From assembly GCF_012974865.1 (NCBI RefSeq), contig NZ_CP043633.1, positions 434,001 through 498,000 of the forward strand: a stretch of 64,000 nucleotides of DNA, in the 5' to 3' direction. This document shows, piece by piece, positions 750-52,800 of this stretch. A program made the position numbers and the translations under genes. Every line of letters begins with the position of its first letter. Within the stretch, counting starts at the first letter, position 1. Under the pieces are notes generated by a model. The model did not search any database, had not been told where the DNA came from, and was given only the letters and a program-made list of their open reading frames with translations. The stretch comes from Nonlabens sp. Ci31 (GTDB taxonomy: Bacteria; Bacteroidota; Bacteroidia; Flavobacteriales; Flavobacteriaceae).

Positions 750-2018
750 TTAAGGGCGCAGTAATGCGACTCCTATATCGCAGCTCAAACATTTATTCAC
801 ATCACAGTAGTTGGGCTTTAATTGCAATAAAGACTGTGTTTGCAAAGCATTTTCTACCATAAAAAGCTTTTTAAAACCCGCTGTAATGCTATTCTTCTCT
901 GGCTTCAATTGGTACATCAACTCCAGTAATTCTTCTGTTATATCTTTTGCTATAGCTCTTGCATGCATAAATTTTATAGGTACGATGCAGTTGATAATTA
1001 GTAAATCGATAAAATCTGCAGTAAGTACTTTTTCTCTTTCTTCTGTCTTTTTATCAAATACATGATGCGTATCCCAATACTTAGCTGCTTTTACTTCAAA
1101 AAGCTGATGGATTTCTTTTCTGGTTTTAGCAAGAAGAAGGGCTCCAAAAAGCACTGGGTTTCTTTGATACAATCTCGCGAGCTGTGAAATCCTGATCGTA
1201 GGATAATTAGCCGGACGCAACCTAAAGAATTTCATGGGGGTTAAAGATGGTTGCAATTGGTGTTTCGCTTTCGCGAAAGCGTACTCATCCACCAGCTCTT
1301 TATAATAAGGATCTTTTTTACTTTCCTGCAACAAGCCTGCCTGACCTAACAAAGCGGCTTCTAATTGAAACGCATCTTTTGCTAATTTGCGCACCACGGC
1401 TTGGTCCATACTACTGGCGAGCTGTTCAAACGCATCGGCATTTGTTTTTGTTCCAAAACCTCTCGCCAGTAACTGAAAGAAGGCCGCTTCCCAATCGTTA
1501 TTATTTTGATCTAACATGTGTTTTATACGATCAGACTTCTGTGCTAATCTTTCAAAAAATAGCTTTTCTAACCACTGGTCTCGCTTAAAAGAATCTACGC
1601 CTGAAAACTGCTTTTCACAATTGATGAATTGGTTGTTTTTTACGGCAAAAAGCTGGTTGTAGGATTGCACTAAATCGGGAGCAACATACTGCGATACTTC
1701 CAGTACAGGAATATTGATACCATCTCTTCTTGTGATTTCTGCATCATGCATCCAGACGACATGAAGAATAACGTTATCATAGGCTGGATCGTCGTCATGA
1801 CCGTGAAGGTACCAGTCACTTGCTTTGATATGCATCTCAATATTCCCAGCCCAATCCTGACCATCAATTTCTACTCGACCGTTAAAGAAGTCTGGCCCAG
1901 AAAAGAAATTATGTATTCCCAGAGCTTTTATTTTTACCCGCTTACCCTCCGTAGTAAGCAGTTCCTGACCGCTTAACTTTTTAAATTTCCAGAGATAATG
2001 TATAAAATCTTCTCGCAT
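750..2018 (-). CDS. DUF2851 family protein
   Basis: A 422-aa protein recognisable as the DUF2851 family typical of Bacteroidetes. The N-terminal half has the conserved run SGPDFFNGRVEIDGQDWAGN (about 40-59), then IEMHIKASDWYLHGHDDDPAYDNV with conserved His and Asp residues, and a C-terminal CxxxxCxxCDIG motif at about 403-415. The N-terminal pattern is reminiscent of nuclease-like folds but no activity is established for the family. No signal peptide is visible, so it is probably cytoplasmic. The gene carries one copy of the genome palindrome GCTTTCGCGAAAGC (1267-1280, read as AFAKA). The start sits at 2018, and TATCTTTC just upstream resembles a -7 promoter box. Confidence 0.85.
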   Translation of the reverse strand: MREDFIHYLWKFKKLSGQELLTTEGKRVKIKALGIHNFFSGPDFFNGRVEIDGQDWAGNIEMHIKASDWYLHGHDDDPAYDNVILHVVWMHDAEITRRDGINIPVLEVSQYVAPDLVQSYNQLFAVKNNQFINCEKQFSGVDSFKRDQWLEKLFFERLAQKSDRIKHMLDQNNNDWEAAFFQLLARGFGTKTNADAFEQLASSMDQAVVRKLAKDAFQLEAALLGQAGLLQESKKDPYYKELVDEYAFAKAKHQLQPSLTPMKFFRLRPANYPTIRISQLARLYQRNPVLFGALLLAKTRKEIHQLFEVKAAKYWDTHHVFDKKTEEREKVLTADFIDLLIINCIVPIKFMHARAIAKDITEELLELMYQLKPEKNSITAGFKKLFMVENALQTQSLLQLKPNYCDVNKCLSCDIGVALLRP

Positions 2019-2203
2019 AGGGAAAGATAGAAATAAAATCTAACATCCTTAGAATCAAAATTCTTTCTGCGCATTATGATGTTTAAAATAGAAGAACAAA
2101 AAGCCCAAGATCAGCTCCCTTTTTCACTTCCGACATTGTTTCATCTTTCCGACTAAATTCCTGCAAGCTTCTACTTGGCTCACATCAATTCCTAAATGGT
2201 ACA

Positions 2204-2240
2204 GAAAAAAACCTCAAAAGCTTATCGCTTTTGAGGTTTT
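2204..2240 (-). terminator. Rho-independent terminator of the cystathionine beta-synthase-like gene
   Basis: A perfect 13-bp stem (AAAACCTCAAAAG at 2208-2220, its complement at 2228-2240) with a 7-nt loop. On the minus strand it is followed by a run of seven T. It lies 64 bp beyond the stop codon at 2304 and before the DUF2851 gene, so it separates the two minus-strand units. The rest of the 285-bp gap (2019-2303) shows nothing else convincing. Confidence 0.85.
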
Positions 2241-3320: not shown

Positions 3321-3337
3321 GTAACCTAATTAGTCTG

Positions 3338-4867: not shown

Positions 4868-5653
4868 CTAAAGACTCTTCGTCCTTCCACCATCAACAGG
4901 TAAATTAATCCCATTAATATAACCTGCTTTGTCACTAGCAAGAAAAGTAATCGCATTTGCTACTTCTTCTGGCTCGGCAAATCTTCTTGCGGGAACATGG
5001 CTTTTCATTATTTCGGCAGCTTGTTCTTCACTCTGCTCAGCTCTAGATGCTTTTCCTGAGATGATTTTATCCAATCTATCGGTTGCCGTAAAACCAGGTA
5101 ATATGTTATTTACGGTAATGCCGTGAGGTCCTAACTCGGTCGCTAGTGTTTTTGCCCAGCTGGCAACTGCGCCACGTATCACGTTAGAAACACCTAAGAA
5201 TTCGATAGGTGCTTTTACGCTGGTGGAGATCACATTGATCACCCTTCCATAACCGGCTTCTTTCATTCCCGGAGTACAAGCCTGGATCAATACCTGATTG
5301 CATTTTACATGTTGTGTAAAAGCTTGTTCTAAAGCATCAACTTCTGCATCTATTAAGAATCCTGGCGCAGGGCCGCCTGTATTGTTGACTATTATATGTA
5401 TAGGATTCGCTTTCGCGAAAGCGGAAACCACATCTTCCACCTCTTTATAATCAGAAAAATCGGCGACTAAATACGTATGGTCATCACGCTGGCTTCTATC
5501 TAATTCATTGAGAACTTTCTGTAATTTATTAGGATTGCGAGCCAGTAAAATCACTCGAGCACCTGCCTGAGCAAACTGTATTGCCGTTGCTCTTCCTATT
5601 CCTGTGCTGCTTCCACAAACGAGGGCTGTTTTGTCTTTTAAGTTGATATTCAT
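4868..5653 (-). CDS. SDR family oxidoreductase with atypical active site
   Basis: A 261-aa Rossmann-fold short-chain dehydrogenase. The cofactor loop GSSTGIG is at 14-20 and the NNTGG segment at about 91-95. The usual catalytic Tyr-x-x-x-Lys is not present: aligning on the following KTLATELG places Ser and Arg (SNVIR) where Tyr and Lys are expected. Thus it may be a divergent SDR with altered chemistry. It shares strand and neighbourhood with the ACMSD-like gene and may take part in kynurenine catabolism, an inference from known flavobacterial cluster composition. One palindrome GCTTTCGCGAAAGC lies inside at 5409-5422, read SAFAKAN. Confidence 0.85.
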   Translation of the reverse strand: MNINLKDKTALVCGSSTGIGRATAIQFAQAGARVILLARNPNKLQKVLNELDRSQRDDHTYLVADFSDYKEVEDVVSAFAKANPIHIIVNNTGGPAPGFLIDAEVDALEQAFTQHVKCNQVLIQACTPGMKEAGYGRVINVISTSVKAPIEFLGVSNVIRGAVASWAKTLATELGPHGITVNNILPGFTATDRLDKIISGKASRAEQSEEQAAEIMKSHVPARRFAEPEEVANAITFLASDKAGYINGINLPVDGGRTKSL

Positions 5654-6880: not shown

Positions 6881-6936
6881 GCTTGGGAATTAACTCTAAT
6901 TGCGATAATACCAACAGATTTCGCATCAAGTGCGGA

Positions 6937-7719
6937 ATGATCAAATCAATTATGAAACGTTTATTCAAATTCTTCCTCAACCTCATCCCAAGACCTTGGC
7001 TTATTAGCGCGAGTTATTATGTGCGTCCATTGATCGCTTGGTGGTACCGCGGGGATCACTATGAAGACCCTATTGATGGAAAGACGTTTAAAAGTTTCTT
7101 GCCTTATGGTTATGAAAAGGTACGGGAAAACGTACTTTCTCCATCGACTCTTTCCTTAGAACGCCATCGATTGTTATGGCTATACTTGCAACACAAAACC
7201 GATTTACTTAACAAGCCTCAAAAGTTGTTGCACTTTGCACCAGAGCAATGTTTTTATAAACGCTTTCGCGAAAGCGAGACCCTCAACTACACCACAACAG
7301 ACCTCAACTCACCACTAGCTGATGTGTCTGCCGATATTTGTCACCTGCCATTTGCTGATAATGAATTTGATTTTATTCTTTGCAATCACGTCTTAGAACA
7401 TATTCCAGACGATTTTAAGGCCATGCAAGAAATCTACCGAGTTCTTAAACCCGGCGGAACTGCGATTCTACAAATACCATTAGAAAATGATCGCGAGGTA
7501 ACTTTTGAAGATGATTCTATTACCGATCCTAAGGAACGTGCGCGTATTTTTGGACAATACGACCATGTGCGAGTTTATGGAACGGATTATTTTGAACGAT
7601 TAGAGAAAGTAGGTTTTACAGTAAATGCCGTCGATTACACAAAAGAACTAGGTGCTAAACAAGTAGATCGTTACCGACTTGCCACTGGTGAGTTGATTCC
7701 TGTGGTTAGTAAAAATTAG
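6937..7719 (+). CDS. Class I SAM-dependent methyltransferase
   Basis: A protein of about 255-260 aa. ATG codons at 6937 and 6952 are both good starts; an upstream TTG at 6883 lies within the repeat-rich spacer and is unlikely. The methyltransferase core begins with the SAM-binding region around LLHFAPEQ, continues with acidic TTDLNSPLADVSADICHLPF, and has the post-I motif FDFILCNHVLEHIPDD followed by the LKPGGTAILQIPL strand. This is the Methyltransf_11 pattern. The substrate is unknown. No signal peptide is evident, though the N-terminus is basic and hydrophobic. One palindrome GCTTTCGCGAAAGC lies at 7262-7275, read as RFRES. Confidence 0.85.
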   Translation: MIKSIMKRLFKFFLNLIPRPWLISASYYVRPLIAWWYRGDHYEDPIDGKTFKSFLPYGYEKVRENVLSPSTLSLERHRLLWLYLQHKTDLLNKPQKLLHFAPEQCFYKRFRESETLNYTTTDLNSPLADVSADICHLPFADNEFDFILCNHVLEHIPDDFKAMQEIYRVLKPGGTAILQIPLENDREVTFEDDSITDPKERARIFGQYDHVRVYGTDYFERLEKVGFTVNAVDYTKELGAKQVDRYRLATGELIPVVSKN

Positions 7720-9906: not shown

Positions 9907-10135
9907 AAGTTCATAGCTTAATTAAGAGTTAAAGTTATACTGCTTTCGCATTTCGATACTTCGGCACATTCAGAACAGAAGTATGGCCCAGTAAACGCTT
10001 CAGCTATTTTGCAAAAAGCTTTTCCATATCTTTAAATCTTATACTTATTAAGCTTTTATAGTGGTTCCGCTTTCGCGAAAGCAAGCTTACAAAAAACCTT
10101 TTCCATATCTTTAAGCTTTATACCTTGACAGCCAC

Positions 10136-14202: not shown

Positions 14203-15648
14203 ATGGACATAAAAAACTTCATCAATAACGAAGAGCACATTCCTTCAACAGGTTTTTGGCTGGATAATTATGAACCTGCTTCTGGTGCGGTTTATGGAGA
14301 AATCCCTAACTCTAACGAAGATGATGTCGAGAAAGCATATCAAGCAGCAAAAACTGCTTTTCCTACTTGGTCCAATACCAGCATTGACGAACGTTCTAAA
14401 ATCATGCTGCGCATCGCAGACCTGATAGAAGAGAACTTAGAACAACTCGCAGCAGCAGAGTCTCGTGATAATGGAAAACCAGTATGGCTAGCCCAGGCAG
14501 TGGACATACCGCGAGCGTCCTCTAACTTTAGATTTTATGGTCATGCCATTACTCAATACGCAAGTAAAGCGCACGAAAGCATAGGTAAAAACACCATGAA
14601 TTATACGATACGCAAACCCATAGGGGTAGTAGGTTGTATCTCACCATGGAACTTGCCTTTGTATTTATTTACTTGGAAAATTGCTCCAGCGATTGCTGCT
14701 GGAAATTGCGTGGTAGCAAAACCTAGCGAAGTCACTCCTGCGACTGCATATTTACTCGGTAAGATTGTTAAAAAGGCTGGATTACCAGCTGGAGTGCTCA
14801 ACATTATTCATGGCAACGGCGCGATCTGTGGCCAAGCAATTGTCGCGCATCCACATATCAAAGCCATTAGTTTTACTGGTGGCACAACTACTGGCGCGCA
14901 CATCGCGAGAACGGCTGCACCCATGTTTAAGAAACTTTCTCTGGAGTTGGGAGGTAAAAATCCCAATCTTATTTTTACCGATTGTGATTATGATAAAATG
15001 CTGGACACTACCGTACGATCTTCCTTTGCCAACCAAGGTCAGATCTGTCTTTGCGGCAGCCGTATTTTTGTGCAACAAGAGATTTACGAGCGCTTCAAAA
15101 CAGACTTTGTTGATCGTGTAAAGAACCTGAGAGTAGGTCATCCAGACCAATCTAGCACCAAAGTTGGTGCAGTGGTCAGTGCTGGTCATAGAGAGAAGAT
15201 TGAGGAGTACCTCGCTTTCGCGAAAGCGGAACCAGAAAACTACCGCATCTTAACTGGCGGAAACCGTGTCATCGTAAAAGAATATGAAAACGGTTATTAC
15301 CTAGAACCCACCGTGATCGAAGTATCCTCCAACGATTGCAAACTGAATCAAGAAGAGATCTTCGGACCGGTGGTGACCATCATGCCATTTACAGACGAAG
15401 CCCACGCGCTAGAACTAGCAAACGGCACCAAATACGGATTAAGCGCCACTTTATGGACCAACGATTTATCCAGAACCATGAGAATGACGCAAGAAATCGA
15501 AGCCGGAATCGTATGGGTCAACACCTGGTTGAATAGAGATTTGCGCACCCCTTTTGGCGGCGTTAAAGACAGCGGCGTAGGACGAGAAGGCGGTTTTGAA
15601 GCTTTGGACTTCTTTACCGAACCTAAGAACATTTGTATTGAGTATTAA
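14203..15648 (+). CDS. Aldehyde dehydrogenase, 2-hydroxymuconic-semialdehyde dehydrogenase-like
   Basis: A 481-aa NAD(P)+-dependent ALDH. It contains the PWNLPLYLFTWKIAPA and KPSEVTPATA cofactor region, the FTGGTTTG turn, the general-base segment LELGGKNPNLIF and the catalytic cysteine in SSFANQGQICLCGSR. The C-terminal NTWLNRDLRTPFGGVKDSG resembles the 2-hydroxymuconic/2-aminomuconic semialdehyde group. Such an enzyme would follow ACMSD in kynurenine catabolism, matching the ACMSD-like and SDR genes at 3.6-5.7 kb, but separation by 8.5 kb of unrelated and mobile DNA makes this an inference. One palindrome lies at 15214-15227 (LAFAKAE). Confidence 0.88.
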   Translation: MDIKNFINNEEHIPSTGFWLDNYEPASGAVYGEIPNSNEDDVEKAYQAAKTAFPTWSNTSIDERSKIMLRIADLIEENLEQLAAAESRDNGKPVWLAQAVDIPRASSNFRFYGHAITQYASKAHESIGKNTMNYTIRKPIGVVGCISPWNLPLYLFTWKIAPAIAAGNCVVAKPSEVTPATAYLLGKIVKKAGLPAGVLNIIHGNGAICGQAIVAHPHIKAISFTGGTTTGAHIARTAAPMFKKLSLELGGKNPNLIFTDCDYDKMLDTTVRSSFANQGQICLCGSRIFVQQEIYERFKTDFVDRVKNLRVGHPDQSSTKVGAVVSAGHREKIEEYLAFAKAEPENYRILTGGNRVIVKEYENGYYLEPTVIEVSSNDCKLNQEEIFGPVVTIMPFTDEAHALELANGTKYGLSATLWTNDLSRTMRMTQEIEAGIVWVNTWLNRDLRTPFGGVKDSGVGREGGFEALDFFTEPKNICIEY

Positions 15649-17755: not shown

Positions 17756-18933
17756 CTACAACACCATAATCATAGGCGGCGGCGCAGCTGGATTTTTTAC
17801 CGCTATCAATCTGGCAGAGCAGACCAGCGATCATTCTATTGCGATATTGGAACGTGGAAAAGACGTACTTCAAAAAGTGCGTATTTCAGGCGGTGGAAGA
17901 TGCAATGTCACTCATGCAGAGTTTGAACCCAAACCTTTATCCCTTAATTACCCGCGTGGAGAGAAAGAATTGCTCGGGCCATTTCACAGCTTTATGACGG
18001 GTGACACCATCGCTTGGTTTGAAGAACGTGGCGTAGAATTAAAAATTGAAGAGGATGGACGTATGTTTCCGGTTTCTAATTCTTCACAGACCATTATCGA
18101 CTGCTTTATCTCGCTTACGCGAAAACACCACATAGACATTCTTACCAGCCATAATGTGGCCTCAATCGAGAAAACAGAGTCTTGGAAATTACATACTAAA
18201 ACAGATATTTTTACTTGTGAACATCTTGTAATAACCGCAGGAAGCAGCCCTAAAGTTTGGGAAATGATGCGTCAACTAGATCATACGATTGTAAACGCAG
18301 TTCCTTCCCTTTTCACCTTTAATATAGTTGATAAAAAAATAACCGAGTTGGCAGGAATAGCCTTAGAAGCTCGAGTAGAAATACCCCAATTAAAGTTAGA
18401 ATCTCAAGGACCTTTACTCATCACGCATTGGGGCTTTTCTGGACCAGCCATTTTAAAAATGAGCGCTTGGGGCGCCATAGAACTGAACTCATCAGATTAT
18501 AAATTTGATTTGGTTATCAACTGGCTGAATTACCTATCGCATCAAGAATGTTTAGAAAGTCTTTTTGAAAGAAGAAAAAATAGTAAAAAACAAGTCGGTA
18601 ACGAGTGGTTGTTTGATCTTCCTAAACGACTTTGGAAATACGTAGTAGAAAGCATTCAGCTCACAGAAAAAAACTGGGCAGATTGTTCCAATACCGACCT
18701 TCAAAATCTAGCGACAGTATTAACAGCAAGCACATTTGCTATCAATGGAAAAAGCACTTTTAAAGAAGAATTTGTAACCGCTGGTGGTGTAGATTTAAAA
18801 GAGGTCAATTTCAAGTCTTTTTCTTCCAAAAAACAAGATAACTTGTATCTTGCAGGAGAAATCCTAAATATAGATGCCATTACCGGCGGCTTTAATTTTC
18901 AAAACGCCTGGACGGGTGGCTGGATCATTGCGA

Positions 18934-18956: not shown

Positions 18957-19211
<255 letters not shown>

Positions 19212-19418: not shown

Positions 19419-20933
19419 TTGAACAAGAAAACGATTTTAATGATTCTCGATGGTTGGGGAATCACCCAGGACCCAAAAGTAAGTGCTATTGCGCAAGCAA
19501 ACACTCCTTTTATAGACAGCCTATATAAGAAATACCCTCATGCCACTTTGCGCACCGACGGTGAACACGTAGGACTACCTGAAGGACAAATGGGAAATAG
19601 CGAGGTAGGTCATATGAACCTCGGCGCGGGTAGAATCGTCTATCAAGATCTTGCCAAAATCAATAAAGCCATAAAAGACGACACGCTCAAAGAAGAGAAA
19701 GTGCTGGTGGATGCTCTCGATTTCGCGAAAGCGAATTCTAAAAAAGTACATTTCTTAGGATTGTTATCTGATGGTGGCGTTCATGCCCACATCAATCATT
19801 TAAAAGCATTGCTAGATGTGGCGAGCGATCGTGAAGTGGAACAGGTTTTTATCCACGCATTTACTGATGGCCGCGATGTAGATCCTAAATCTGGCGCTGG
19901 TCATGTAGAAGATTTGATGAATTATATAAGCGGTACCAATGCACAGTTAGCATCTGTTACTGGACGTTATTTTGCGATGGACAGAGACCAACGCTGGGAA
20001 CGTGTAAAGAAAGCTTATGATGTAATAGTACACGGTATGGGTCTTCCTACACACGATCCTGTTGCAGCGATAAAGGAGAATTATAAAAATGGGGTTACTG
20101 ATGAATTTATAGAACCTATAGTGGTGCTCAACGGTACTGAACCTGCAGCTTTAGTAGAAGAAGGCGATGTCGTTATTTTCTTTAATTATAGAACAGACAG
20201 AGGCCGTGAACTAACTCAAATGTTATCCCAAAAAGATTTTCATGAGCAAAACACACATGCGCTGGATCTTTACTATGTCACCATGACCAAATATGATGAA
20301 AGCTACAAAAACATAAAAATCATCTTTGAAAAAGACAATCTTAAAAACACTCTAGGCGAAGTGCTCTCTGCAGCAGGGAAGACACAGATACGTATTGCCG
20401 AAACAGAGAAGTATCCACATGTGACCTTTTTCTTTAATGGTGGTCAAGAAGAACCTTTTCAAGGTGAAAGCAGGTTGATGTGTAACTCTCCTAAAGTAGC
20501 CACTTATGACTTGCAACCAGAAATGTCTATAGATTGTGTTTCTAGCAGTATCATTCCAGAGATCCATAAAAAAGCAGCCGATTTTATATGCCTCAATTTT
20601 GCCAATCCAGATATGGTAGGACATACCGGCTCTATGGAAGCAGCGGTAAAAGCATGTGAAGCTGTAGATGCCGCAGCAAAAGAAGTCATCATTGCTGCCA
20701 TCAAAAACGATTACACAGTGATAGTCATCGCAGACCATGGGAATTGCGAGGTAATGCTCAATACAGATGGCTCTGTAAATACAGCACACACCACTAATCC
20801 TGTTCCGATTATTATAGTCGATAAGGATATTAAACAAGTAAAAGACGGGATTCTAGGTGAGATTGCTCCTACTGTATTAAAGTTAATAGGAGTACAACAA
20901 CCAAGTGAAATGACGCAAAAATCATTAATTTAG
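19419..20933 (+). CDS. gpmI: 2,3-bisphosphoglycerate-independent phosphoglycerate mutase
   Basis: A 504-aa Mn2+-dependent glycolytic enzyme interconverting 3- and 2-phosphoglycerate through a phosphoserine. Present are ILMILDGWGI (metal Asp), MGNSEVGHMNLGAGR with the catalytic serine, HAFTDGRDVDPKS, GRYFAMDRDQRWERV, and the C-terminal metal ligands in NFANPDMVGHTG and IADHGNCE. Length is normal. The start is TTG at 19419, since no ATG precedes the conserved DGWG segment. A near-match to the genome palindrome lies at about 19722. The thioredoxin-like gene follows after only 4 bp. Confidence 0.95.
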   Translation: MNKKTILMILDGWGITQDPKVSAIAQANTPFIDSLYKKYPHATLRTDGEHVGLPEGQMGNSEVGHMNLGAGRIVYQDLAKINKAIKDDTLKEEKVLVDALDFAKANSKKVHFLGLLSDGGVHAHINHLKALLDVASDREVEQVFIHAFTDGRDVDPKSGAGHVEDLMNYISGTNAQLASVTGRYFAMDRDQRWERVKKAYDVIVHGMGLPTHDPVAAIKENYKNGVTDEFIEPIVVLNGTEPAALVEEGDVVIFFNYRTDRGRELTQMLSQKDFHEQNTHALDLYYVTMTKYDESYKNIKIIFEKDNLKNTLGEVLSAAGKTQIRIAETEKYPHVTFFFNGGQEEPFQGESRLMCNSPKVATYDLQPEMSIDCVSSSIIPEIHKKAADFICLNFANPDMVGHTGSMEAAVKACEAVDAAAKEVIIAAIKNDYTVIVIADHGNCEVMLNTDGSVNTAHTTNPVPIIIVDKDIKQVKDGILGEIAPTVLKLIGVQQPSEMTQKSLI

Positions 20934-21629: not shown

Positions 21630-22700
21630 TTGAACCTTCACTTTTCAAATCGCTATGTGCTCAACGCCACACTCATTGTTTGCTGGCTAGCTACGGCTAT
21701 GATAGGCTTTAATGGTTTTTTTAAATCTCATGATTTACTGACAGTTTCTTTGTTTGACTATCAAATTCCAGACGCCTTGACTTTTTTACTGGCTGTAATG
21801 ATGTTCTTATCACCAGTTACAGGACTATTTATTAATGTTAGGATTGCCAAATGGCTGCTTCTTAGTTCCGCCTTTTTGTATGTAGTTCTTATTGTCTTTG
21901 ACCTGCACAGATTGACCCCATACATGATCGCTTATCTAGGCGTATTTGCTGCACTAATTTTACTCAAATACGACTCCAGCATTCTGTACACCGCATTATT
22001 GATCATCGCATCTGGGATTTATATATTTAGTGGTTTACACAAACTCAACATAGGTTTTGTAAAAGATATTGCGCCACAATTTTGGTTTTATTCCTTACCC
22101 TTTAATTACAATGATGTCATAGGATATGGGTTTGCTATCATAGAAATAGTTGCTGGATTATTACTGCTACTACCGCTTACGCGAAAACTTGCTTGCATCC
22201 CACTCCTACTGCTGCACACTGTTATTATTTGGAAACTAGGACCTTGGAAACTGGATTGGAACACGATCGTAATGCCGTGGAATTTCTTGATGATCGTGAC
22301 CTTAATTTACCTGTTTAGAAAAAGTGCTTTATCCACATTTAGAATAGGTTCTGCTCAAACGATTATGGTTGTTTTAGGAGTTTTCTTTTGGCTGTTACCA
22401 GGACTTTCCCAAATCATATGGATTCCAGAGAACTTGAGCATGATGCTTTATTCTGGCAAATCAAAAAGTGGTTATCTAGTAATTAATGAACCTATAGATC
22501 GGTTATCATCCTACGATCACATTCCTGAGAAAGAAAAAATGCTCATCAGTCTGCAACGTCTTTCCATGGAAGAACGCGGTATTGCCATACATCCAGAACT
22601 AAAGATTTACGATAAAATACTAGAAAACTTCAAGTCAAAAATTCCGCAAACAGATCGTATTTATTACACCCATCCCAATAAAATATCCGAAAAACTATGA
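21630..22700 (+). CDS. Polytopic membrane protein of unknown function
   Basis: A 356-aa protein with about eight hydrophobic segments in residues 10-260, then a soluble tail of about 90 residues (after YSGKSKSGYL). The pattern, with the run IFSGLHKLNIGFV and a second block ending in WKLGPWKLDWNTIVMPWN, recalls HTTM/vitamin-K carboxylase-like or DoxX-type membrane proteins, but I cannot assign one. The start is a TTG at 21630. It overlaps the following cupin gene by 4 bp (ATGA), so the two are translationally coupled. Confidence 0.65.
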   Translation: MNLHFSNRYVLNATLIVCWLATAMIGFNGFFKSHDLLTVSLFDYQIPDALTFLLAVMMFLSPVTGLFINVRIAKWLLLSSAFLYVVLIVFDLHRLTPYMIAYLGVFAALILLKYDSSILYTALLIIASGIYIFSGLHKLNIGFVKDIAPQFWFYSLPFNYNDVIGYGFAIIEIVAGLLLLLPLTRKLACIPLLLLHTVIIWKLGPWKLDWNTIVMPWNFLMIVTLIYLFRKSALSTFRIGSAQTIMVVLGVFFWLLPGLSQIIWIPENLSMMLYSGKSKSGYLVINEPIDRLSSYDHIPEKEKMLISLQRLSMEERGIAIHPELKIYDKILENFKSKIPQTDRIYYTHPNKISEKL

Positions 22701-23523: not shown

Positions 23524-24831
23524 TCAAATTCGAATTTTCTCCAAACTCTCTCTCAAGCTAGAGAAGCTAGGTGTTTTATCGCTGTACTCTTTACGCAACA
23601 CGTTCTTTTCTTCGTCTGTAGCTCCTATTTGTTCCAGCATGTTGACCAAGTGCATTTTCATGTGTCCTACTTGTATTCCTGTAGTAACTAAAGAATGTAA
23701 TGCCGCAAAATTTTGAGCGAGTCCTGCAACGGCTGTTACCTTCATTAGCTTTTCAGCAGTTGGGTTGCCTAGAATTTGCATCGCTAATTTAGAAAGCGGG
23801 TGTAAAGAAGTAAGTCCTCCTACGGTTCCTAGTGCTAGTGGAAAATCTGCTTCAAAGATAAAGCTGTCGTTCATTATTCGCGCACGAGTAAGACTTCGGT
23901 ATTGTCCATCTCTAGAAGCAAAAGCATGTACCCCAGCCTCCACCGCTCTAAAATCATTTCCTGTAGCAATGACTACCGCATCAATACCATTCATGATTCC
24001 TTTATTATGGGTGACCGCTCGATAAGGTTCTACGGTGGCAATGTCTACGGCGCGCACAAATTTTCTGACAAACTCTGCTCCTGTTACTCCATTTACAGTT
24101 CCTATCTCGTCAATTTTACAAGAAACAGATACGTTTACGACACATTCTGGGACATAATTGCTCAAGATACTCATGATTACTTCTGGCACATCGCTAGAAA
24201 AGCCTTGAAATTCAGAAGCTTTTAATTTTAAAGTGGTCGCGAGTTGCTCAAGTGTGGTGTTGATAAAGTTAGCACCCATGGCGTCCCTTGTTTCAAAGGT
24301 CGCATGCAACTGGTAATATCCTTCTAGGCTTTTGGTTTTATCTACTAATATCAATTCTTGAATACCGCCACCACGTTTTTTCATCGAGGCGTTGATCTGT
24401 TCGAGGGATTGTAATAATTCCGCTTTCGCGAAAGCGTAAAAAGCATCCATCTCACTGCCCAAACCATGATACATCAAATGTACTTGTCCCGATTTAAGAG
24501 TGCCTTTGATCTGTGTTTTAAAACCACCTCGATCCATCCAAAACTTAGCTGCTTTACTAGCTGCAGCCACCACACTACTTTCCTCAATTGCCATAGGAAT
24601 CGTGACCAACTGGTCATCGATCAAAAAATTAGGCGCCAATCCAAATGGAAAGTAAAAATTAGTTACCGTGTTCTCACTAAAACCGTCGTGCAAGTCCTGT
24701 AATTTTTGATCTTCATTCCAATATTGAGTAAGCGTTTCTCTGGCAGTAGGGCTATTATTAAGATGCTGCTCTACCAGCCAATCTATTTTTTGAGATTTAG
24801 AAAGTTTTGAAAATCCAGTAAACAGTTGCAT
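23524..24831 (-). CDS. Hydroxymethylglutaryl-CoA reductase, class II type
   Basis: A 435-aa enzyme of the mevalonate pathway, converting HMG-CoA and NAD(P)H to mevalonate or the reverse. Motifs include PMAIEESSVVAAASKAAKFW (catalytic Glu), the cofactor loop DAMGANFINT, a conserved HNKGIMNGIDAV with the catalytic Lys, GTVGGLTSLHP, and C-terminal GHMKMHL with the catalytic His, typical of class II. The correct start is ATG 24831: a TATCTTTG -7 box lies 20 bp upstream, between it and an earlier in-frame TTG at 24861. A palindrome GCTTTCGCGAAAGC is at 24422-24435 (YAFAKAE). Confidence 0.93.
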   Translation of the reverse strand: MQLFTGFSKLSKSQKIDWLVEQHLNNSPTARETLTQYWNEDQKLQDLHDGFSENTVTNFYFPFGLAPNFLIDDQLVTIPMAIEESSVVAAASKAAKFWMDRGGFKTQIKGTLKSGQVHLMYHGLGSEMDAFYAFAKAELLQSLEQINASMKKRGGGIQELILVDKTKSLEGYYQLHATFETRDAMGANFINTTLEQLATTLKLKASEFQGFSSDVPEVIMSILSNYVPECVVNVSVSCKIDEIGTVNGVTGAEFVRKFVRAVDIATVEPYRAVTHNKGIMNGIDAVVIATGNDFRAVEAGVHAFASRDGQYRSLTRARIMNDSFIFEADFPLALGTVGGLTSLHPLSKLAMQILGNPTAEKLMKVTAVAGLAQNFAALHSLVTTGIQVGHMKMHLVNMLEQIGATDEEKNVLRKEYSDKTPSFSSLRESLEKIRI

Positions 24832-24850
24832 ACATATAAAAATTGAGCGA

Positions 24851-24858
24851 CAAAGATA
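24851..24858 (-). promoter_or_regulatory. Candidate -7 box (TATCTTTG) of the HMG-CoA reductase gene
   Basis: Fits TAnnTTTG and lies 20 bp before the ATG at 24831; it decides between the two possible starts. Confidence 0.6.
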
Positions 24859-29337: not shown

Positions 29338-31400
29338 TCGATTGCTATTGCACCTTCTTCATAGGTGTTTAAAAATCTAATATTCATTTGATCACAAGTG
29401 ACTTTCCAGGCCTCTACTACATTTCGATAATTAGATCCGTCGGCGATAATCATTTTCGGTTGAGTGTCTAGAATAAGTCGTTCTATGTTTATTTTAGGAG
29501 AGTGCGACAACAATACTGTAGCGTTCTTAATAGAAATATCATAGACGGCATTTTCGGCGATAACCACCAGTTGTGTGTCTTTATAGTGCACCAAACTTTG
29601 TAAATGGGCTGTAGACAACTTCTTGCCTCGATGATTTTCTATATTTTTTAATCGCTCTAAACTAATAACGGCTCTTGTAGAATCCATGACATGCAAATCA
29701 GTCAGTAACAGCACTTGATCCTTATTGCTCAAACTGACCGCACTTCCAGTAGCTTGATGCAGTACTAAAAACTGTTCTTCAGTGTAGGCATACTTTTCAA
29801 AACTAGTTATCCCCATCCAAAGTATCACAGATACGAGACTTAGGTGCAGCATCCAGTTGGGCTTTTTCAAGTAAAAACGTTCTTTTCTACTTCTCTTAAA
29901 ATAAGGAACTAAAAACAAAACCAAACCAAACAGAGTCGTATACATCAAAATCGTTTCCCACCAGGTGATATATATGTCTGTTATAATAAACGCATCCCAA
30001 GAACTGATTGTAGCAACGGTTTCCATGATGAATTCCAGTATTACATTTAAAGCAGTCGTTAGCCAGTCGGTAGGAAACCCAATGAGCAACAAAACAATCA
30101 ATAATAACGCAGCGCCTATAATCAATGGCAACAGGGGCAGTAGCAGTAAATTTCCAAGAATAAACAATCCGGGAAACTGATGAAAATAAAATAGGCTCAC
30201 TCCTGCTACTCCTATTTGAGCTGCTATGGTTACTGTACATATACTCCAGAAAAAATCTTTGACCTTATTGCGCCAAGTCCATAATCCCACCAGTACCGGT
30301 TGTATCAATACAATAGAAAATACCGCCATATAGCTCAACTGAAAGCCCACCTGAAACAGCAATCGCGGATCATAAATCAGCAACACAAAAGCAGATAAAG
30401 TCAAACTGTGATAAACCGATCCTTTGCGTTTGAGATTCATACCTATAGCCACAAAAGAAAACATAGTTACTGCTCGCATAATGGAAGGTGACATTCCTGT
30501 GAGCAAAGCAAAAGACCATAAAAGAATAATAAGAACCGCACTTTGAATCCAGCGACCGTATTTCAGTCGTACTATTCTTTGAGTAAGAAATCTTAGAATC
30601 AGTAGAATGATTCCTACATGCAAACCGCTAAGAGCAAGAATATGAATGACCCCTGCATCTCTAAAGCTTCTGGTCAGCTCGGGATCAACATTTTGTCGTT
30701 GTCCTAAAACCAAAGCTTCAATCATCGCTCGAGGACGTTCCTTTAAACTGGATGCAGTTAGTTTATTTAGAATCGCATTTCTAACACCTAATAGAACGTC
30801 CATTCTGTCAGGAACCTTCTCTTCGCTCCATATGCGAGTTTGATCAACATACATCTGACCATAGACATCAATGGACTTTAAATAAGCTCTGTAATCAAAA
30901 TCACCAGGATTAGGTGCAAATGCAGGTAAATCAATATGCTCATAAACGACTAGCCTATCACCTACCAGGTAACCCAGACTGTCAGCTCTTTTAAATAATA
31001 CCAATACTTTTCCTGAAACGCTTTCTTGACCCAAGGACAATACCTCAGCATAAAAGCGATCATTAAATTTATTGGAGGTTAATCGTTGTTTTAGCTCAAA
31101 AGAAATGACCTGATCTTGAGCTTGTGATGGTCTGTTAATAAAGTGATTACTTGCTAGCTGATTATGAAACTGAATTTGAATTCCCCCTAGAAAAAAGAAA
31201 AAGCAGTAAACGGATACAGCAAAAAATGCTTTTGAAAAAAATGAATACTTGTTTATAAGCAAGGAAAGTACAGCAATCGAAAAAGATATGCCCAAGCCGT
31301 ATAGATAATGGTGCGTAGGCAATTCTATACCGCTAGAAAAAATAATTCCTGCGATAAGAAAAAATAAAATTCTATAAAATGGATAATCAAGCCAGCGCAT
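29334..31400 (-). CDS. ComEC/Rec2 family competence membrane protein
   Basis: A 688-aa polytopic protein. An N-terminal DUF4131-like part with three hydrophobic helices and an OB-like soluble domain (about 90-200) precedes the Competence domain with HILALSGLHVGIILLILRF (about 251-269) and LTGMSPSIMRAVTMFSFVA. The C-terminal 180 residues are a diverged metallo-beta-lactamase-like part without an obvious HxHxDH motif, as in many Bacteroidetes homologues. ComEC forms the inner-membrane DNA uptake channel in natural transformation. It is last in a minus-strand run including the NlpC/P60 gene. Confidence 0.9.
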   Translation of the reverse strand: MRWLDYPFYRILFFLIAGIIFSSGIELPTHHYLYGLGISFSIAVLSLLINKYSFFSKAFFAVSVYCFFFFLGGIQIQFHNQLASNHFINRPSQAQDQVISFELKQRLTSNKFNDRFYAEVLSLGQESVSGKVLVLFKRADSLGYLVGDRLVVYEHIDLPAFAPNPGDFDYRAYLKSIDVYGQMYVDQTRIWSEEKVPDRMDVLLGVRNAILNKLTASSLKERPRAMIEALVLGQRQNVDPELTRSFRDAGVIHILALSGLHVGIILLILRFLTQRIVRLKYGRWIQSAVLIILLWSFALLTGMSPSIMRAVTMFSFVAIGMNLKRKGSVYHSLTLSAFVLLIYDPRLLFQVGFQLSYMAVFSIVLIQPVLVGLWTWRNKVKDFFWSICTVTIAAQIGVAGVSLFYFHQFPGLFILGNLLLLPLLPLIIGAALLLIVLLLIGFPTDWLTTALNVILEFIMETVATISSWDAFIITDIYITWWETILMYTTLFGLVLFLVPYFKRSRKERFYLKKPNWMLHLSLVSVILWMGITSFEKYAYTEEQFLVLHQATGSAVSLSNKDQVLLLTDLHVMDSTRAVISLERLKNIENHRGKKLSTAHLQSLVHYKDTQLVVIAENAVYDISIKNATVLLSHSPKINIERLILDTQPKMIIADGSNYRNVVEAWKVTCDQMNIRFLNTYEEGAIAID

Positions 31401-36785: not shown

Positions 36786-37888
36786 TGTCTTTTAAAACTA
36801 CATCATTAAGTTCTCTAGCGCTCCAAAAGTTTAAAAAAAACTTCTGGGGCGTTTTGAGTTTTTTTGTTATTCTATTTTATGCACTAGTTGCCCTATTTGC
36901 TTACGTAATAGCTCCAGACGATACGCAATATGCCAACCAAATGCACATTTCTATACATTCCCAACCGCCAGGTTTTACCGTAGGTATGTTAGTTCTCCCC
37001 TCCACAACTGCTGAGTCTAGTTTTTGGGACTGGTGGAATGGAAAAAAATCTACCGTACAAGAAATCCCTTATGCCGATTTAAAAATCGATAACGGCAGTG
37101 TTTTCTACCGTCCTTTTGACGTGGACGGCAAGCAACTCTCTTTTGTAGATGCCAATTTTACCGTTGATAATGGATTAGAATTGTCTCGCTTTCGCGAAAG
37201 CTACACCTCACAAAAAACATTTCTATTAGGTACTGACAAGTATGGTCGTGATTTATTGAGCCGCATGATGATAGGGACAAGAATAAGTATCTCTATTGGT
37301 TTTGTGGCGGTCTTGATCTCCTTACTTATTGGTGTTTTTTTAGGAGCTATTGCCGGATATTACGGCGGTAAAATAGACGCTGCTATCATGTGGCTCATCA
37401 ATGTAACCTGGTCCATTCCTACCCTACTGATGGTGATCGCTATAAGTATTGCTTTAGGAAAAGGTTTTCTCACTGTTTTTATCGCAGTAGGACTTACCAT
37501 GTGGGTAGAAGTGGCACGTGTGGTGCGTGGACAGATGATTGTAGCCAAAGAATACCAATACGTAACAGCCGCAAAAGCTTTAGGCTTTCCTGATTTTAGA
37601 ATTATTACCCGACATATTTTACCTAACATTATGGCGCCTGTCATTGTCATTAGTGCGGCAAATTTTGCAGCTTCCATACTTATAGAAAGTGGTTTGAGCT
37701 TTTTAGGATTAGGCGCACAACCACCTATGCCCAGTTGGGGCAGTATGATTAAAGATCATTACCAATACATCATTCTTGACAAGGCTTATCTTGCCATAGT
37801 TCCAGGAATTGCTATCATGACTTTAGTAATGGCTTTTATGCTCTTAGGAAATGCACTGCGAGACGCACTGGATGTAAAAACAAGTTAA
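36785..37888 (+). CDS. ABC transporter permease, OppC/DppC type
   Basis: A 367-aa inner-membrane permease. TM1 (about 20-42) is followed by a large periplasmic insertion (about 45-145), then five TM segments with the EAA loop around VTAAKALGFPDFRIITRHILPN that contacts the ATPase. The GTDKYGRDLLSRMMIGTRISI motif is typical of OppC. It would import peptides or nickel with partners; no binding protein, second permease or ATPase gene is adjacent. One palindrome at 37188-37201 encodes SRFRES in the insertion. Coupled to the protease gene upstream and the nuclease gene downstream. Confidence 0.9.
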   Translation: MSFKTTSLSSLALQKFKKNFWGVLSFFVILFYALVALFAYVIAPDDTQYANQMHISIHSQPPGFTVGMLVLPSTTAESSFWDWWNGKKSTVQEIPYADLKIDNGSVFYRPFDVDGKQLSFVDANFTVDNGLELSRFRESYTSQKTFLLGTDKYGRDLLSRMMIGTRISISIGFVAVLISLLIGVFLGAIAGYYGGKIDAAIMWLINVTWSIPTLLMVIAISIALGKGFLTVFIAVGLTMWVEVARVVRGQMIVAKEYQYVTAAKALGFPDFRIITRHILPNIMAPVIVISAANFAASILIESGLSFLGLGAQPPMPSWGSMIKDHYQYIILDKAYLAIVPGIAIMTLVMAFMLLGNALRDALDVKTS

Positions 37889-40181: not shown

Positions 40182-41484
40182 ATTTTTTGATTCAATATTC
40201 AAATATACCATAATCGCTATGGTTGTAGGAATGACTTCCTGTAATTCTAAAACCAATGGTAACAATACGCCTACTTCACCTCAAGGAGAAAACTTTGTTC
40301 TTGAAAAAGACAGAGACCAAAAGCTTCTGATAGAGATAAATGATAACGAACCTATTCCGGCGGCTTACCTATTAGGAGAGTGGATTGAAAAACTAAAAGG
40401 CAAAAGAATTGCTTTAGTAGGAAATCAAACCAGTGTTGTAAAAACGGGAGATACTGTCGTTTCTAAAGAATGGGATATTAGGGATAAAGTGCGTTACGCA
40501 CATCTAGTAGACACCTTACTGGCTCATGGAATAGAGATCAAACGTGTTTTTGCCCCAGAGCACGGTTTTAGAGGCACTGCAGATGCTGGCGCCAGCATCA
40601 AGGATGGCGTAGATGAACAAACGGGCATTCCTATCATTTCTCTTTATGGCAAGAATAAAAAGCCATTTAAAGAACAACTAGAAGACGTGGACATCGTTTT
40701 ATTTGACATTCAAGATGTGGGCACTCGTTTCTACACTTATATATCTACCCTTCATTATGTAATGGAAGCTTGTGCAGAGTTCGACCGCAAACTCATTCTC
40801 CTGGACCGACCTAATCCTAACGGGCACTACATAGACGGACCTATTCTAGAAAAAAAGTATCAAAGCTTTGTGGGCATGCACCCAGTCCCTGTGGTACACG
40901 GAATGACTATAGGAGAATATGCGATGATGATTAATGGAGAAAAATGGTTGGATAAGAAGTTACAGGCCGACTTGGAAATTATCAAATGCAAAAAATATAC
41001 ACACGCTACTCCCTACAGCGTCCCTATCAAGCCATCTCCTAATTTACCTAACGATCAAGCTATAAATCTGTATCCTAGCCTTTGCTTTTTTGAAGGAACT
41101 GAGGTAAGCGTAGGTCGTGGTACTGAAATGCAATTTCAGGTTTATGGATCTCCATCTTTAGCAAAATATACAGACTTTGCTTTTACTCCGACGCCTAATG
41201 AAGGTGCCAAAAGACCTGTGTTTAACGGAAAGAAATGCTTTGGGGTAGATCTTAGAACTTATAAAAAACTAGATCATTTAGAATTGGCCTTTTTAGTAGA
41301 CGCTTTCGCGAAAGCGCCATCAAAACAAAACTTCTTCAACCCCTTTTTTACCAAACTAGCAGGAACAACTATCTTACAAACCCAGATCGAGAAAGGAATG
41401 AGCGCACAAGAAATCGCATTGACATGGGAGAAAGGACTTGAAGACTATCAAAAAATCAGACTGAACTACCTACTTTATGAGTAA
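40162..41484 (+). CDS. Exo-beta-N-acetylmuramidase NamZ-type (DUF1343) lipoprotein
   Basis: A 440-aa lipoprotein (lipobox GMTSCNS at about 24-30). The DUF1343 core starts at KRIALVGNQTSVV, and contains RVFAPEHGFRGTADAGASI, VLFDIQDVGTRFYTYISTLHYVMEA, LDRPNPNG and the C-terminal GTEVSVGRGTEMQFQVYG. Characterised NamZ releases terminal MurNAc from peptidoglycan fragments, so a role in wall recycling or scavenging is likely. The start at 40162 gives a full signal peptide but lies inside the 5' end of the divergent permease gene. A palindrome at 41302-41315 encodes DAFAKAP. Confidence 0.9.
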   Translation: MKYSRFTFFDSIFKYTIIAMVVGMTSCNSKTNGNNTPTSPQGENFVLEKDRDQKLLIEINDNEPIPAAYLLGEWIEKLKGKRIALVGNQTSVVKTGDTVVSKEWDIRDKVRYAHLVDTLLAHGIEIKRVFAPEHGFRGTADAGASIKDGVDEQTGIPIISLYGKNKKPFKEQLEDVDIVLFDIQDVGTRFYTYISTLHYVMEACAEFDRKLILLDRPNPNGHYIDGPILEKKYQSFVGMHPVPVVHGMTIGEYAMMINGEKWLDKKLQADLEIIKCKKYTHATPYSVPIKPSPNLPNDQAINLYPSLCFFEGTEVSVGRGTEMQFQVYGSPSLAKYTDFAFTPTPNEGAKRPVFNGKKCFGVDLRTYKKLDHLELAFLVDAFAKAPSKQNFFNPFFTKLAGTTILQTQIEKGMSAQEIALTWEKGLEDYQKIRLNYLLYE

Positions 41485-44252: not shown

Positions 44253-45356
44253 TTAAAGCTTATCAAACTCTACGCTCAATCGTTCTGTGATGGCGTCCAT
44301 TTCTCCTACTCCATCAACACCATAATATTTATTTTGTGCTGCGTAGTAGTCTTTTAAAGGTGCTGTTTGCTTGTAATATACCGCGATACGATCTTTGATT
44401 ACCCCTTCATTTGCATCATCTGGGCGGCCGCTTTCTTTACCTCTTTCTAACAGACGTTCTACAAGTACTTCATCATCTACTTCTAGCGCTACCATACCGT
44501 CGATTTTCTCATTTTTTGAGGCTAGTAATTTGTCCAATGCTTCTGCTTGGGCGTCTGTTCTTGGAAAACCGTCAAAAATAAAACCAGCAGCATCTGGTGT
44601 TTTTTCCACCTCAGCTTTAAGCATTTTAATGGTCACCTCATCTGGAACTAGATTTCCTTTATCCATAAAGGATTTTGCCAATGTTCCTAACTCGGTACCA
44701 TTTTTTATATTGTAACGGAAAACGTCTCCAGTAGAGATGTGAACCAGTCCGTATTTATCTTTTAAACGAGTGGCCTGAGTTCCTTTTCCTGCTCCTGGAG
44801 GACCGAATAAAACGATGTTTTTCATGCGTTGTGTTTGTACGTAAAGTTCGGGCAAATTGCGCCCTAAATTATTATAATCCATGCCGTATCCCACGACAAA
44901 TTTATTTTCAATATTCTTTCCTACATAATCGATTTTTAACTCTCGATCATATACCTCAGGTTTAAAAAATAGAGTGGCTATTTTCAGGTCTTGGGGCTGG
45001 TGTTGTTTTAGCTTTCGCGAAAGCGTATCTATTGTCAAACCACTGTCTACTATATCCTCCACGATCACAACTGTCCTCCCTGCTAGATCAATATCCAGCT
45101 CGTCACCCAGTTCAACGACACCAGTGGAAGTGGTTCCTTGATAGCTTTTGGCCCTTAAAAAACTCACCTCACAATCGTAATGAAACTTACGAGTAAGATC
45201 TGCCAGAACCATATAACTCCCGTTAAGAATCCCTAAAAAAACAGGGTTTTTACCTGCGAGATCTCTGTTGAGCTGGTAGGCGAGGTTATCAATGGCAGCA
45301 GCTATTTCCTGTGCACTCAAAAAGGGTTTAAAATAAAGATCGTGGATCTTAATCAC
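44253..45356 (-). CDS. Fused hypoxanthine phosphoribosyltransferase-adenylate kinase
   Basis: A single 367-aa frame with two complete enzymes. Residues 1-177 are an Hpt: GILNGSYMVLADL, the PRPP loop VVIVEDIVDSGLTID and FVVGYGMDYNNLGRNLPELY. After a few residues (VQTQR), an adenylate kinase of normal length (190 aa) starts with MKNIVLFGPPGAGKGTQA, then STGDVFRY, FIFDGFPRTDAQAEAL and a short lid (RGKESGRPDD). An ATG (44825) at the junction could also give free Adk. GTG 45356 is the start because the -7 box TATCTTTG at 45373-45380 lies upstream. Together they salvage hypoxanthine and balance adenylates. A palindrome is at 45011-45024 (TLSRK). Confidence 0.92.
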   Translation of the reverse strand: MIKIHDLYFKPFLSAQEIAAAIDNLAYQLNRDLAGKNPVFLGILNGSYMVLADLTRKFHYDCEVSFLRAKSYQGTTSTGVVELGDELDIDLAGRTVVIVEDIVDSGLTIDTLSRKLKQHQPQDLKIATLFFKPEVYDRELKIDYVGKNIENKFVVGYGMDYNNLGRNLPELYVQTQRMKNIVLFGPPGAGKGTQATRLKDKYGLVHISTGDVFRYNIKNGTELGTLAKSFMDKGNLVPDEVTIKMLKAEVEKTPDAAGFIFDGFPRTDAQAEALDKLLASKNEKIDGMVALEVDDEVLVERLLERGKESGRPDDANEGVIKDRIAVYYKQTAPLKDYYAAQNKYYGVDGVGEMDAITERLSVEFDKL

Positions 45357-45372
45357 AACAAATAATTTTTTG

Positions 45373-45380
45373 CAAAGATA
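45373..45380 (-). promoter_or_regulatory. Candidate -7 box (TATCTTTG) of hpt-adk
   Basis: Fits TAnnTTTG, 16 bp upstream of GTG 45356; it supports that start over the longer frame beginning at 45428. Confidence 0.6.
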
Positions 45381-45540
45381 ATGATTAGTAAACAGTATGC
45401 AGCAGCAGTTTACCGTAGATGTAGGCACCTATAAATCGGCAACATCAGTATAAAAAACGAGTGGGTCACAGACCTCTATAGCTGTTCTAATTTGAGAAGA
45501 AAATGCGAATTATAAAGGAGTGATAGACCTGTTGCTGCTA

Positions 45541-45600: not shown

Positions 45601-45601
45601 T

Positions 45602-51216: not shown

Positions 51217-51504
51217 AATAATAGTCTTTAAATTATTTAATTAAAAATACACTATTCCAATGAATAATTGATTTGCGCCTTTTGTAAGGCAAAGCATATG
51301 AGGTTGATACAAGATTTCTTACTTGATGTGAACCACTCATGGAGCAAGAAAAGACCTATAGAAGATTCCAGCAGTCTCGATAGTTATCTAAATTTTTAAG
51401 AGTTTAGTAAACCGCATCGCACCTGCTCCAACTGCCCTTTTTTTCCCTACCGAGTAAAAATCTATAGGTACAGATCTCCCCTCTTAAAACCAGCTTCTTC
51501 CATT

Positions 51505-52800
51505 TTAAGACCTAGAAAAAATATCCTTAAACTGATAAAAGAATCGCTCTATGAGTCGCAAGTCTTCGGTTACTGTTTCGGCGATGACGCTGGTTTCTTG
51601 TTGGAGTTTTAGTTCTTTTTTATAAGAGGTCATTAAGGTGTCTGAAAGTGCTATTTGAACATAATAAAAACCATCCTTGTCTGGAACTTGGGATATGGTC
51701 GTTACTTTTCCTTCTAAAACGCCAAATTCTGTTTCTGGAAAGTTTTGTAATTTGAGATAGGTTTTTTGTCCAGCTCTTAATTTGCCAGAATTTAACATGG
51801 GAGTTTTTAAGGCAGCAATGTAGGCCTCGTAATTTTCTGGAAATACCGTAAATAGCAAATCGCCTTGCTGCACTTGCTGGTCTTCTTGCCAGTATTGCGT
51901 AAAACCCAAAAGCCCATTCATTGTGGCTCTTAAAATATACAATTACTCATAATCGTGAACTGCTTTTTTGAGTTGGATAAAAGACTGTATGACCGCTTTA
52001 TACAATTGCAAATCTTCTTTAGTACGGCTTATTTTAATACCTTCTAGCGAGCTGGAAGTATTGCTCAACTGATTTCTTAACTGAGAAATGCTCGCATCTA
52101 TACTTTGATAAGCACGCGCATTTTGAGCATATTCCAGTTGTTTTAATTCATATTCTTGCGCTGCAATCACTCCTTTTTCAAAAAGTACTTTATGGCGATC
52201 GAGCTCTTTCTTTTTAAAGTCTAATTCTGTTTGTTGTATCCGCTTTCGCGAAAGCATATTCCTCAACTGAGCCTGTAACTGAATTCTAGTAGATCGATTT
52301 GCTAAGGCATCGTTGTCAAAGGGTTGCAAGTCCTTATTGAGCTGGTACTGGATATAAGCATTTTCAAAAACAGCAAATGGCGCTTCCAGATCTCCTAAAA
52401 AAAGAATGGGCAAACTGTCCAAAGGAAATTGAAAATTCTTTTTGTCATAAGTGATCGTATCGAGAACCTGCTCCAGCAACAGCACATCTTTGTAATTTGC
52501 GGCATTTTGAAGTACAGCGAGAATAGTACCTGATTGTACTTTTTGATCATTTTGAACCAACAAATGCTGAATGCTAGTGGTGATCTTGCTGTATTCTTTT
52601 TGAGGTGGCACTGCGGTAGTAATAATCCCTTGTGACACAATAATATCTGGATATTTTACAAACCACGAGATGAATAAAAGCAACAGGATCACGATTAAAA
52701 ACAAGGTATTCCCATACCTAATGATGCTACTAGGTACTTTAGTGAGAATTTCTTGTACTTCTTCACTGCGCAATTCTATGTCTTCTAATTGGTCTGGCAT
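51505..52800 (-). pseudogene. HlyD-family membrane fusion protein with one in-frame TAA
   Basis: The 432 codons read as one protein except for TAA at 51943-51945. The N-terminal part has one TM (about 30-52), a biotinyl-lipoyl-like strand (VQSGTILAVLQNAA) and a long coiled coil (about 150-270). The part after the stop (LYILRATMNGLLGF, then QVQQGDLLFTVFP) is the second lipoyl half and C-terminal beta domain of the same protein. The frame does not change across the stop, so a single base change (for example CAA to TAA) is enough. HlyD adaptors connect C39-type exporters to an outer-membrane channel; this one belongs to the peptide locus upstream. It carries the palindrome at 52242-52255. Confidence 0.85.

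Follow-up and report, generated by a model that had tools for sequence, protein, structure and literature searches.

A perfect 14-bp palindrome recurs throughout the chromosome of the flavobacterium Nonlabens sp. Ci31, where we studied it both in a window of 64,000 nucleotides (contig NZ_CP043633.1, positions 434,001 to 498,000) and in the genome as a whole. The palindrome is present in 487 exact copies in the genome (one contig, 3,740,082 bp), from which the reversed pattern is absent; this count is far from random expectation, and all 23 Nonlabens genomes searched, this one included, are carriers, with 288-857 copies each. In our best reading, to which we give a probability of about 45%, the copies would be sites of a putative dyad-symmetric protein that binds them inside the cell and whose job, on the scale of the chromosome, would depend on their spacing. 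The original prediction had described the palindrome as a genome signature selected as DNA rather than as peptide, and both statements are strongly supported by the counts in this genome and in the genus, by ortholog conservation and by a signal in the flanks.

Abundance, conservation and spacing

The 11 exact copies predicted in the window were all recovered at the positions given for them; the near-copy placed at 19722 also exists, with one mismatch, and starts at 19719. Allowing up to two mismatches, the window has 14 matches where 0.15 are expected (100 shuffles, largest 1). A larger sample of the genome, made of the window and 20 evenly drawn 20-kb stretches, contains 63 exact, 12 one-mismatch and 9 two-mismatch copies, against means of 0, 0.05 and 0.9 for 199 half-shuffled palindromes. 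Nineteen of the 20 stretches hold copies, along a chromosome whose terminus was located roughly, by the skew of guanine over cytosine (GC skew). None of the 12 one-mismatch copies deviates at the first or last base, and seven do so at position 6 or 9. The density is 130 per Mb in this genome and, with genome sizes rounded, about 115-250 per Mb in carriers.

Could such copies lack a function and simply result from codon usage, biased mutation or a dispersed repeat? The recurrence of AFAKA-type peptides is the only support that we found. The ten window copies in coding sequences (CDS) are indeed read, as first described, as AFAKA (six), RFRES (two) or LSRK (two), and the copy at 10069 lies outside open reading frames (ORFs). 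Copies thus stand in three frames and between genes, their flanks differ from one window copy to another, and the 199 half-shuffled palindromes gave no exact copy at all. Conservation among orthologs, far above that of controls from the same genes, refutes this explanation, which retains next to no probability. Chance and codon effects are ruled out by the window shuffles, the genome count, the shuffled palindromes and this conservation taken together.

Conservation was measured in 20 Nonlabens genomes along one syntenic stretch, represented by 20 kb in 18 genomes, by a shortened 13 kb in another and by 24 kb from the window, between reciprocal-best orthologs, with same-phase 14-mers from the same genes as control; pairs whose alignment stopped short of the site were dropped, and the pairs are not independent of one another. 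The 14-mer is intact in 82.5% of 80 pairs at protein identities of at least 90% (control 26.8%), in 91.6% of 191 pairs at 80-90% (3.9%), in 73.4% of 365 pairs at 70-80% (2.0%), in 75.1% of 213 pairs at 60-70% (1.1%) and still in 70.7% of 140 pairs below 60% (0.2%). The copies of this stretch are spread over the three frames (41, 21 and 18, with 4 outside genes), and all eight one-mismatch copies stand at places where another species has an exact site. Selection acts on the DNA at the palindrome. Among the other Nonlabens orthologs listed, the site at 28981..28994 (AFAKA frame, thioredoxin/DsbD-like ORF 28813-29337(+)) is exact in 13 of 18, and the site at 37188..37201 (RFRES frame, ORF 36785-37888(+), an ATP-binding cassette (ABC) permease) in 14 of 19.

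The palindrome has a limited distribution. A genus search covering 36 genomes from outside Nonlabens gave 35 without any copy and one with 6. In a family sample of 397 genomes, hundreds of copies occur only in four Nonlabens, in G234 (408; a member of genus g209) and in G250 (857; probably Dokdonia sinensis), the other 391 having 0-19. Named-species genomes provide at least 111 motif-bearing stretches, and those listed comprise 25 from Nonlabens, 45 from Dokdonia, 4 from 'Flavobacteria bacterium BBFL7' and 37 from other taxa. The permease site is found again in G250 and G234, shifted by one base and read in another frame, and is present in none of 14 non-carrier orthologs; one further Nonlabens site has a one-mismatch counterpart in G234, the same sites being repeated over several query genomes in these cross-genus counts. 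In the permease tree, carriers and the non-carrier G188 form one group (support 82/83), so the motif may have had a single origin followed by loss, or may have been gained several times; the tree fits both.

Some relatives show an excess of matches with up to two mismatches: 86 and 74 in genus g163 (control 20 and 10), 41 and 38 in g95 (control 5 and 15) and 39 in g70 (control 7), nine other genomes having 6-22 (control 1-21). These near-copies may be site remains or imported DNA. A search for relics at orthologous places, over 33 kb of G188, yielded no near-copy, although this genome has 86 in total against 20 for its control; some of this excess belongs to the copper island described below.

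Sites are spaced more evenly than random placement would have them. Over the first 100 sites of the Ci31 genome, in its first 763 kb, the coefficient of variation (CV) of the gaps is 0.68, against 0.99 at random (standard deviation 0.09); none of 5000 simulations gave so low a value, and 1 gap of 99 is shorter than 1 kb where 12% are expected. Sixty gaps in G004 give the same CV of 0.68 (P = 0.0004). In the interval from 2.3 to 4.9 kb past the start of the permease gene, taken as an anchor, sequence is available from 19 Nonlabens genomes: 18 of them hold a single exact site and the remaining one (G011) a one-mismatch copy; the interval was chosen post hoc and the genomes are mutually related. 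The sites in question occupy several alternative places, and this pattern of one per interval looks like site turnover under a spacing rule.

The signal extends beyond the palindrome. Counting each side of each site, the base adjoining the core is C (5' side) or G (3' side) in 86% of cases in the Ci31 genome and in 78% among 268 non-redundant sites, a set that, like that of the named loci, is diluted by hits from the 37 unrelated stretches. The 5' flank is rich in T and G and poor in C, the 3' flank rich in A and C and poor in G, and the bias, symmetric about the dyad, fades out by about 30 bp. Third codon positions show it in each of the three frames (91, 38 and 52 sites, with 87 unassigned), most weakly in the RFRES frame, where 5' C and 3' G are depleted and the T excess is absent. 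An index of this bias averages 0.65 at 63 Ci31 sites against 0.50 at random places (standard deviation 0.07 each). Left and right flank bases vary independently of each other in the Ci31 genome; in the named loci, their pairing is slightly above expectation over the first four positions. The extended consensus folds well as a DNA hairpin, yet 15 of 200 shuffles equal it, giving no sign that a hairpin is the selected form.

Most sites lie in CDS. By our own ORF calls, however, sites outside genes are enriched 2.3- to 4.7-fold in three of four sequence sets: 28.6% against 12.4% expected in the Ci31 sample, 31.2% against 9.5% in the 111 named loci listed, and 38.1% against 8.1% in G250 and G234; the syntenic stretch has 3.8% against 4.3%. 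A promoter or terminator element was considered and rejected, convergent, divergent and tandem spacers showing no consistent preference.

Candidate readers of the sites

What could read such a signal? Known one-way signals such as uptake sequences and Chi are not palindromic, and dimers are the usual readers of palindromes that have symmetric flanks. The outcomes of our searches for methyltransferases, secretins, AddB-size nucleases and ParB proteins, given below, lead us to favour a dyad-symmetric protein acting inside the cell. The palindrome would be the core of its site, 14 strict base pairs between degenerate flanks of about 30 bp each, and the putative protein would bind it as a dimer or in another dyad-symmetric form. 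About one site per 4-9 kb is kept on the chromosomes of Nonlabens, Dokdonia and the third genus (g209); single sites could move, crowding and long gaps being selected against. The job, dependent on regular spacing, might be nucleoid organisation, looping or the marking of resident DNA. In favour of this reading stand the abundance of sites in this genome and across the genus, their persistence at orthologous codons, their even spacing with turnover, the symmetric flank bias in every frame, the lack of a preferred spacer class, their spread along the chromosome and their presence inside phage genes. The sites, their evenness, their conservation within Nonlabens, the flank signal and the limited distribution are direct results; the protein, its symmetry and its chromosome-scale job are inferred from them.

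Several observations weigh against this proposal. The main gap is the binding protein itself, found neither by the ParB search nor by a scan of 20 neighbours of intergenic sites. A Noc-like ParB paralog was rejected as the reader: an extra ParB is absent from 20 of the 23 Nonlabens genomes, which have a single PF02195 match each, in a search that did not extend to SlmA/TetR-type proteins. A pair of similar Nonlabens phages, which lack an annotated integrase and total 71 kb, contains no copy. With up to two mismatches, G250 and G234 have 1281 and 732 matches against 857 and 408 exact ones, and these two genomes lack the majority of the Nonlabens sites in the syntenic stretch; because of both facts, maintenance of sites across genera is loose. 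Finally, uptake sequences have most of the genomic properties described here in common with the palindrome (PMC1939737).

Four further PF02195 matches occur in frames of 602-616 aa; additional, larger ParB-type proteins in open frames of this length are found in G014, G018, G019 and G033, that of G033 on the contig with its motif cluster. The 20 neighbours, picked around 76 intergenic sites in search of an autoregulated DNA-binding gene, include no helix-turn-helix family, six genes without a family and one YbaB/EbfC gene; the latter (L247:10486-10800), encoding a DNA-binding protein, has the motif 49 bp away on the side of its start.

An uptake sequence, by which an envelope receptor would prefer site-bearing DNA and recombination would spread and restore sites, shares with the palindrome an even spacing, a core with degenerate flanks, a location mostly in CDS with enrichment outside genes (here in three of four sets) and many near-copies, as in G250 and G234 (PMC1939737); moreover, a preference for own DNA is reported for Riemerella columbina, a related flavobacterium (PMC7965970). 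However, the uptake sequences described in the consulted part of PMC1939737 are non-palindromic, whereas ours is a perfect 14-bp palindrome. Among 13 carriers and 11 non-carriers, two of each match the pilus-type secretin PF00263, and genes of some phages, at least one of them with an integrase, carry sites. The ComEC-like competence gene of the window (29334..31400, minus strand, PF03772), whose nearness had been offered as a hint of uptake, has no demonstrated link to the motif and proves nothing, since ComEC is reported from Riemerella (PMC7965970) and Flavobacterium johnsoniae as well. We consider an uptake role unlikely.

The phage sites come from viral contigs that were chosen for holding the motif. 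There are at least 120 motif stretches, and among the contigs listed 109 have one site and 11 two or more. The GC content of these 11 is 0.36-0.48; four are largely alike and two identical, so they represent seven phages at most. Sites lie inside the terminase and portal genes of L231, the primase gene of L224 and the head protease gene of L163, and integrase or Mu-type transposition genes are present on L224, L146 and L186. The phage sites have flanks similar to those of chromosomal ones, with flank indices between 0.43 and 0.73 on the 13 viral contigs examined. Several copies per contig are seen in L163, L186, L146, L195, L224 and L231.

The absence of the motif from the two Nonlabens phages would suit a Chi-like role, in which AddAB-type resection would stop or change at the site and RecA would be loaded on the strand whose 5' side is rich in G and T, sparing resident DNA. 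RecA prefers G/T-rich DNA, and on both strands the roughly 30 nt 5' of the core are rich in G and T; the motif density also resembles that of known Chi. Proteins matching PF12705, of AddB size (frames of 900-966 aa) and presumably AddB, occur in 26 of 26 genomes; this nuclease is, however, equally common among the 14 carriers and the 12 non-carriers searched. Known Chi sites are directional and 5-8 nt long, quite different from a palindrome of 14 nt. To look for substitute palindromes, one sample of about 20 kb was taken from each of 15 non-carriers, and this weak test found none among the top-listed words (the three top 10-mers and 12-mers of 16 samples, one being that of carrier G234), and it was a blunt one, as its rule of at least three copies missed the two exact copies of the G234 sample. 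Taken together, this makes a Chi-like role distinctly unlikely.

An orphan DNA methyltransferase might also make and keep a palindrome of this kind, as in the highly iterated palindromes (HIPs) of cyanobacteria, which track methyltransferases (PMC4390886); ours is likewise palindromic and highly iterated. Against this, PF00145 and PF01555 each match 13 of the 23 carriers (for PF01555, 12 over the cut-off), and G006, G007 and G009, with 664, 752 and 563 copies, have neither. The density is several-fold to tenfold below that of HIP1, and one-mismatch copies are not end-biased. With these two families as the search range, we rejected a C5 or N6_N4 orphan methyltransferase common to all carriers, and hold this origin to be highly improbable.

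Returning to a dyad-symmetric reader inside the cell, we can tentatively propose, at somewhat less than even odds, that these sites constitute a new chromosome element: 288-857 sequence-specific, dyad-symmetric and evenly spaced anchors, read by one putative protein, with turnover that keeps their spacing, adopted by some phages and carried on moved copper-resistance islands. If true, Nonlabens, Dokdonia and the third genus would have a sequence-specific loop or self-mark system, and we know of no counterpart with so many sites. Few bacterial DNA signals are so long, exact and numerous and, to our knowledge, no other is jointly palindromic, evenly spaced and kept at orthologous codons below 60% protein identity. 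In the open-access literature we found no report of the exact 14-mer or of shorter and shifted strings, in a search that misses gapped print and leaves subscription papers mostly outside; nor did we find anything there joining Dokdonia, Nonlabens and palindromes, or highly iterated palindromes and Bacteroidetes. The motif provides an exact bait for isolating its protein, and carriers, sister genera with a near-copy excess and non-carriers offer a ready natural comparison.

The motif also marks DNA that has left the carrier genera. Low counts in other genomes of the family are partly due to one island that encodes, by inspection, CusA-, CusC- and CopA-like proteins and whose pair of sites, always 933 bp apart, recurs in G131, G122, G259 and G145. 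Copper/metal-resistance-like islands with a host-like motif density, in genomes otherwise nearly free of the motif, were seen in L253, L254, L255, L258 and L261. Most simply, the copper island is DNA derived from a carrier, and its site pair could serve as a tracer of exported DNA.

Copies in the window and their surroundings

The remaining AFAKA-frame copies are at 1267..1280 (ORF 750-2018(-), DUF2851), 5409..5422 (SDR-family ORF 4868-5653(-)), 15214..15227 (aldehyde-dehydrogenase-type ORF 14203-15648(+)), 24422..24435 (HMG-CoA reductase ORF 23524-24861(-)) and 41302..41315 (NamZ-like ORF 40162-41484(+)). The other RFRES copy, at 7262..7275, is in ORF 6883-7719(+), weakly matched by small-molecule methyltransferases. 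The LSRK copies are at 45011..45024, in an HPRT-adenylate kinase fusion (ORF 44253-45428(-)), and 52242..52255, in ORF 51943-52800(-), the intergenic one at 10069..10082 between the divergent ORFs 9532-9894(-) and 10136-13096(+). The one-mismatch copy GATTTCGCGAAAGC occupies 19719..19732 in ORF 19419-20933(+). Two identical two-mismatch copies, GCTTACGCGAAAAC, lie about 4 kb apart and in the same frame of different ORFs, at 18113..18126 (ORF 17742-18956(+)) and 22175..22188 (ORF 21630-22700(+)). A repeated heptamer, TAGGCAG, is found at 18954-19156, its doubled, non-overlapping units numbering ten.

The copy at 52242 is the last before an AT-richer region containing genes of the type for ribosomally synthesized and post-translationally modified peptides (RiPPs). 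The final 11.7 kb, where GC content drops from 0.380 to 0.341, is indeed free of copies, and RiPP-type genes are present as first announced, with a SPASM protein, a C39 peptidase and an ABC transporter in the stretch 53756-62152. As for the accompanying mention of defence genes, of the 11 ORFs of at least 100 aa beyond 52.8 kb, nine were compared with PADLOC models, and only the ABC transporter matched (best mad3, 1.9e-33), the other eight giving no match.

Comparison with known systems

Chi resembles the motif in density and in a possible role in telling resident from foreign DNA; unlike Chi, the motif is palindromic and about twice as long. HIP1 and the alternate HIPs are, like our motif, iterated, over-represented, lineage-specific palindromes whose role is unknown according to the part of PMC4390886 drawn on. 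They differ from it in length (5-8 bp, against 14 bp plus flanks), in density (about 1000-2000 copies per Mb for HIP1, against about 115-250) and in their one-base deviations, which fall mostly at the ends (PMC4390886), and our carriers have no C5/N6_N4 methyltransferase in common. The label 'HIP1-like' of the original prediction is therefore apt as a description of an iterated palindrome, and fails on density and mismatch positions; as for a methyltransferase in every carrier, the two families searched, PF00145 and PF01555, provide none.

The DNA uptake sequences (DUS) of Neisseria and uptake signal sequences (USS) of Haemophilus likewise occur in hundreds of evenly spaced copies with degenerate flanks, within CDS yet enriched outside (PMC1939737). 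In these respects, with enrichment in three of our four sets, 'DUS-like' is justified; unlike these sequences, as described there, the motif is palindromic, lacks a secretin match in 11 of 13 carriers and has sites in the genes of some phages. Comparable as well are the sites of Noc in Bacillus subtilis, about 70 palindromes of 14 bp, and those of SlmA in E. coli, also palindromes and numbering 24-52 (PMC4726725), which are similarly scattered over the chromosome. Unlike the case of Noc, there is no extra ParB-family protein in most Nonlabens genomes; and unlike both sets of sites, as the consulted part of PMC4726725 presents them, ours number in the hundreds. Sites of the Noc and SlmA type are depleted around the terminus; in the Ci31 chromosome, sampled in 20 stretches and with its terminus placed roughly, our sites seem to leave no evident gap.

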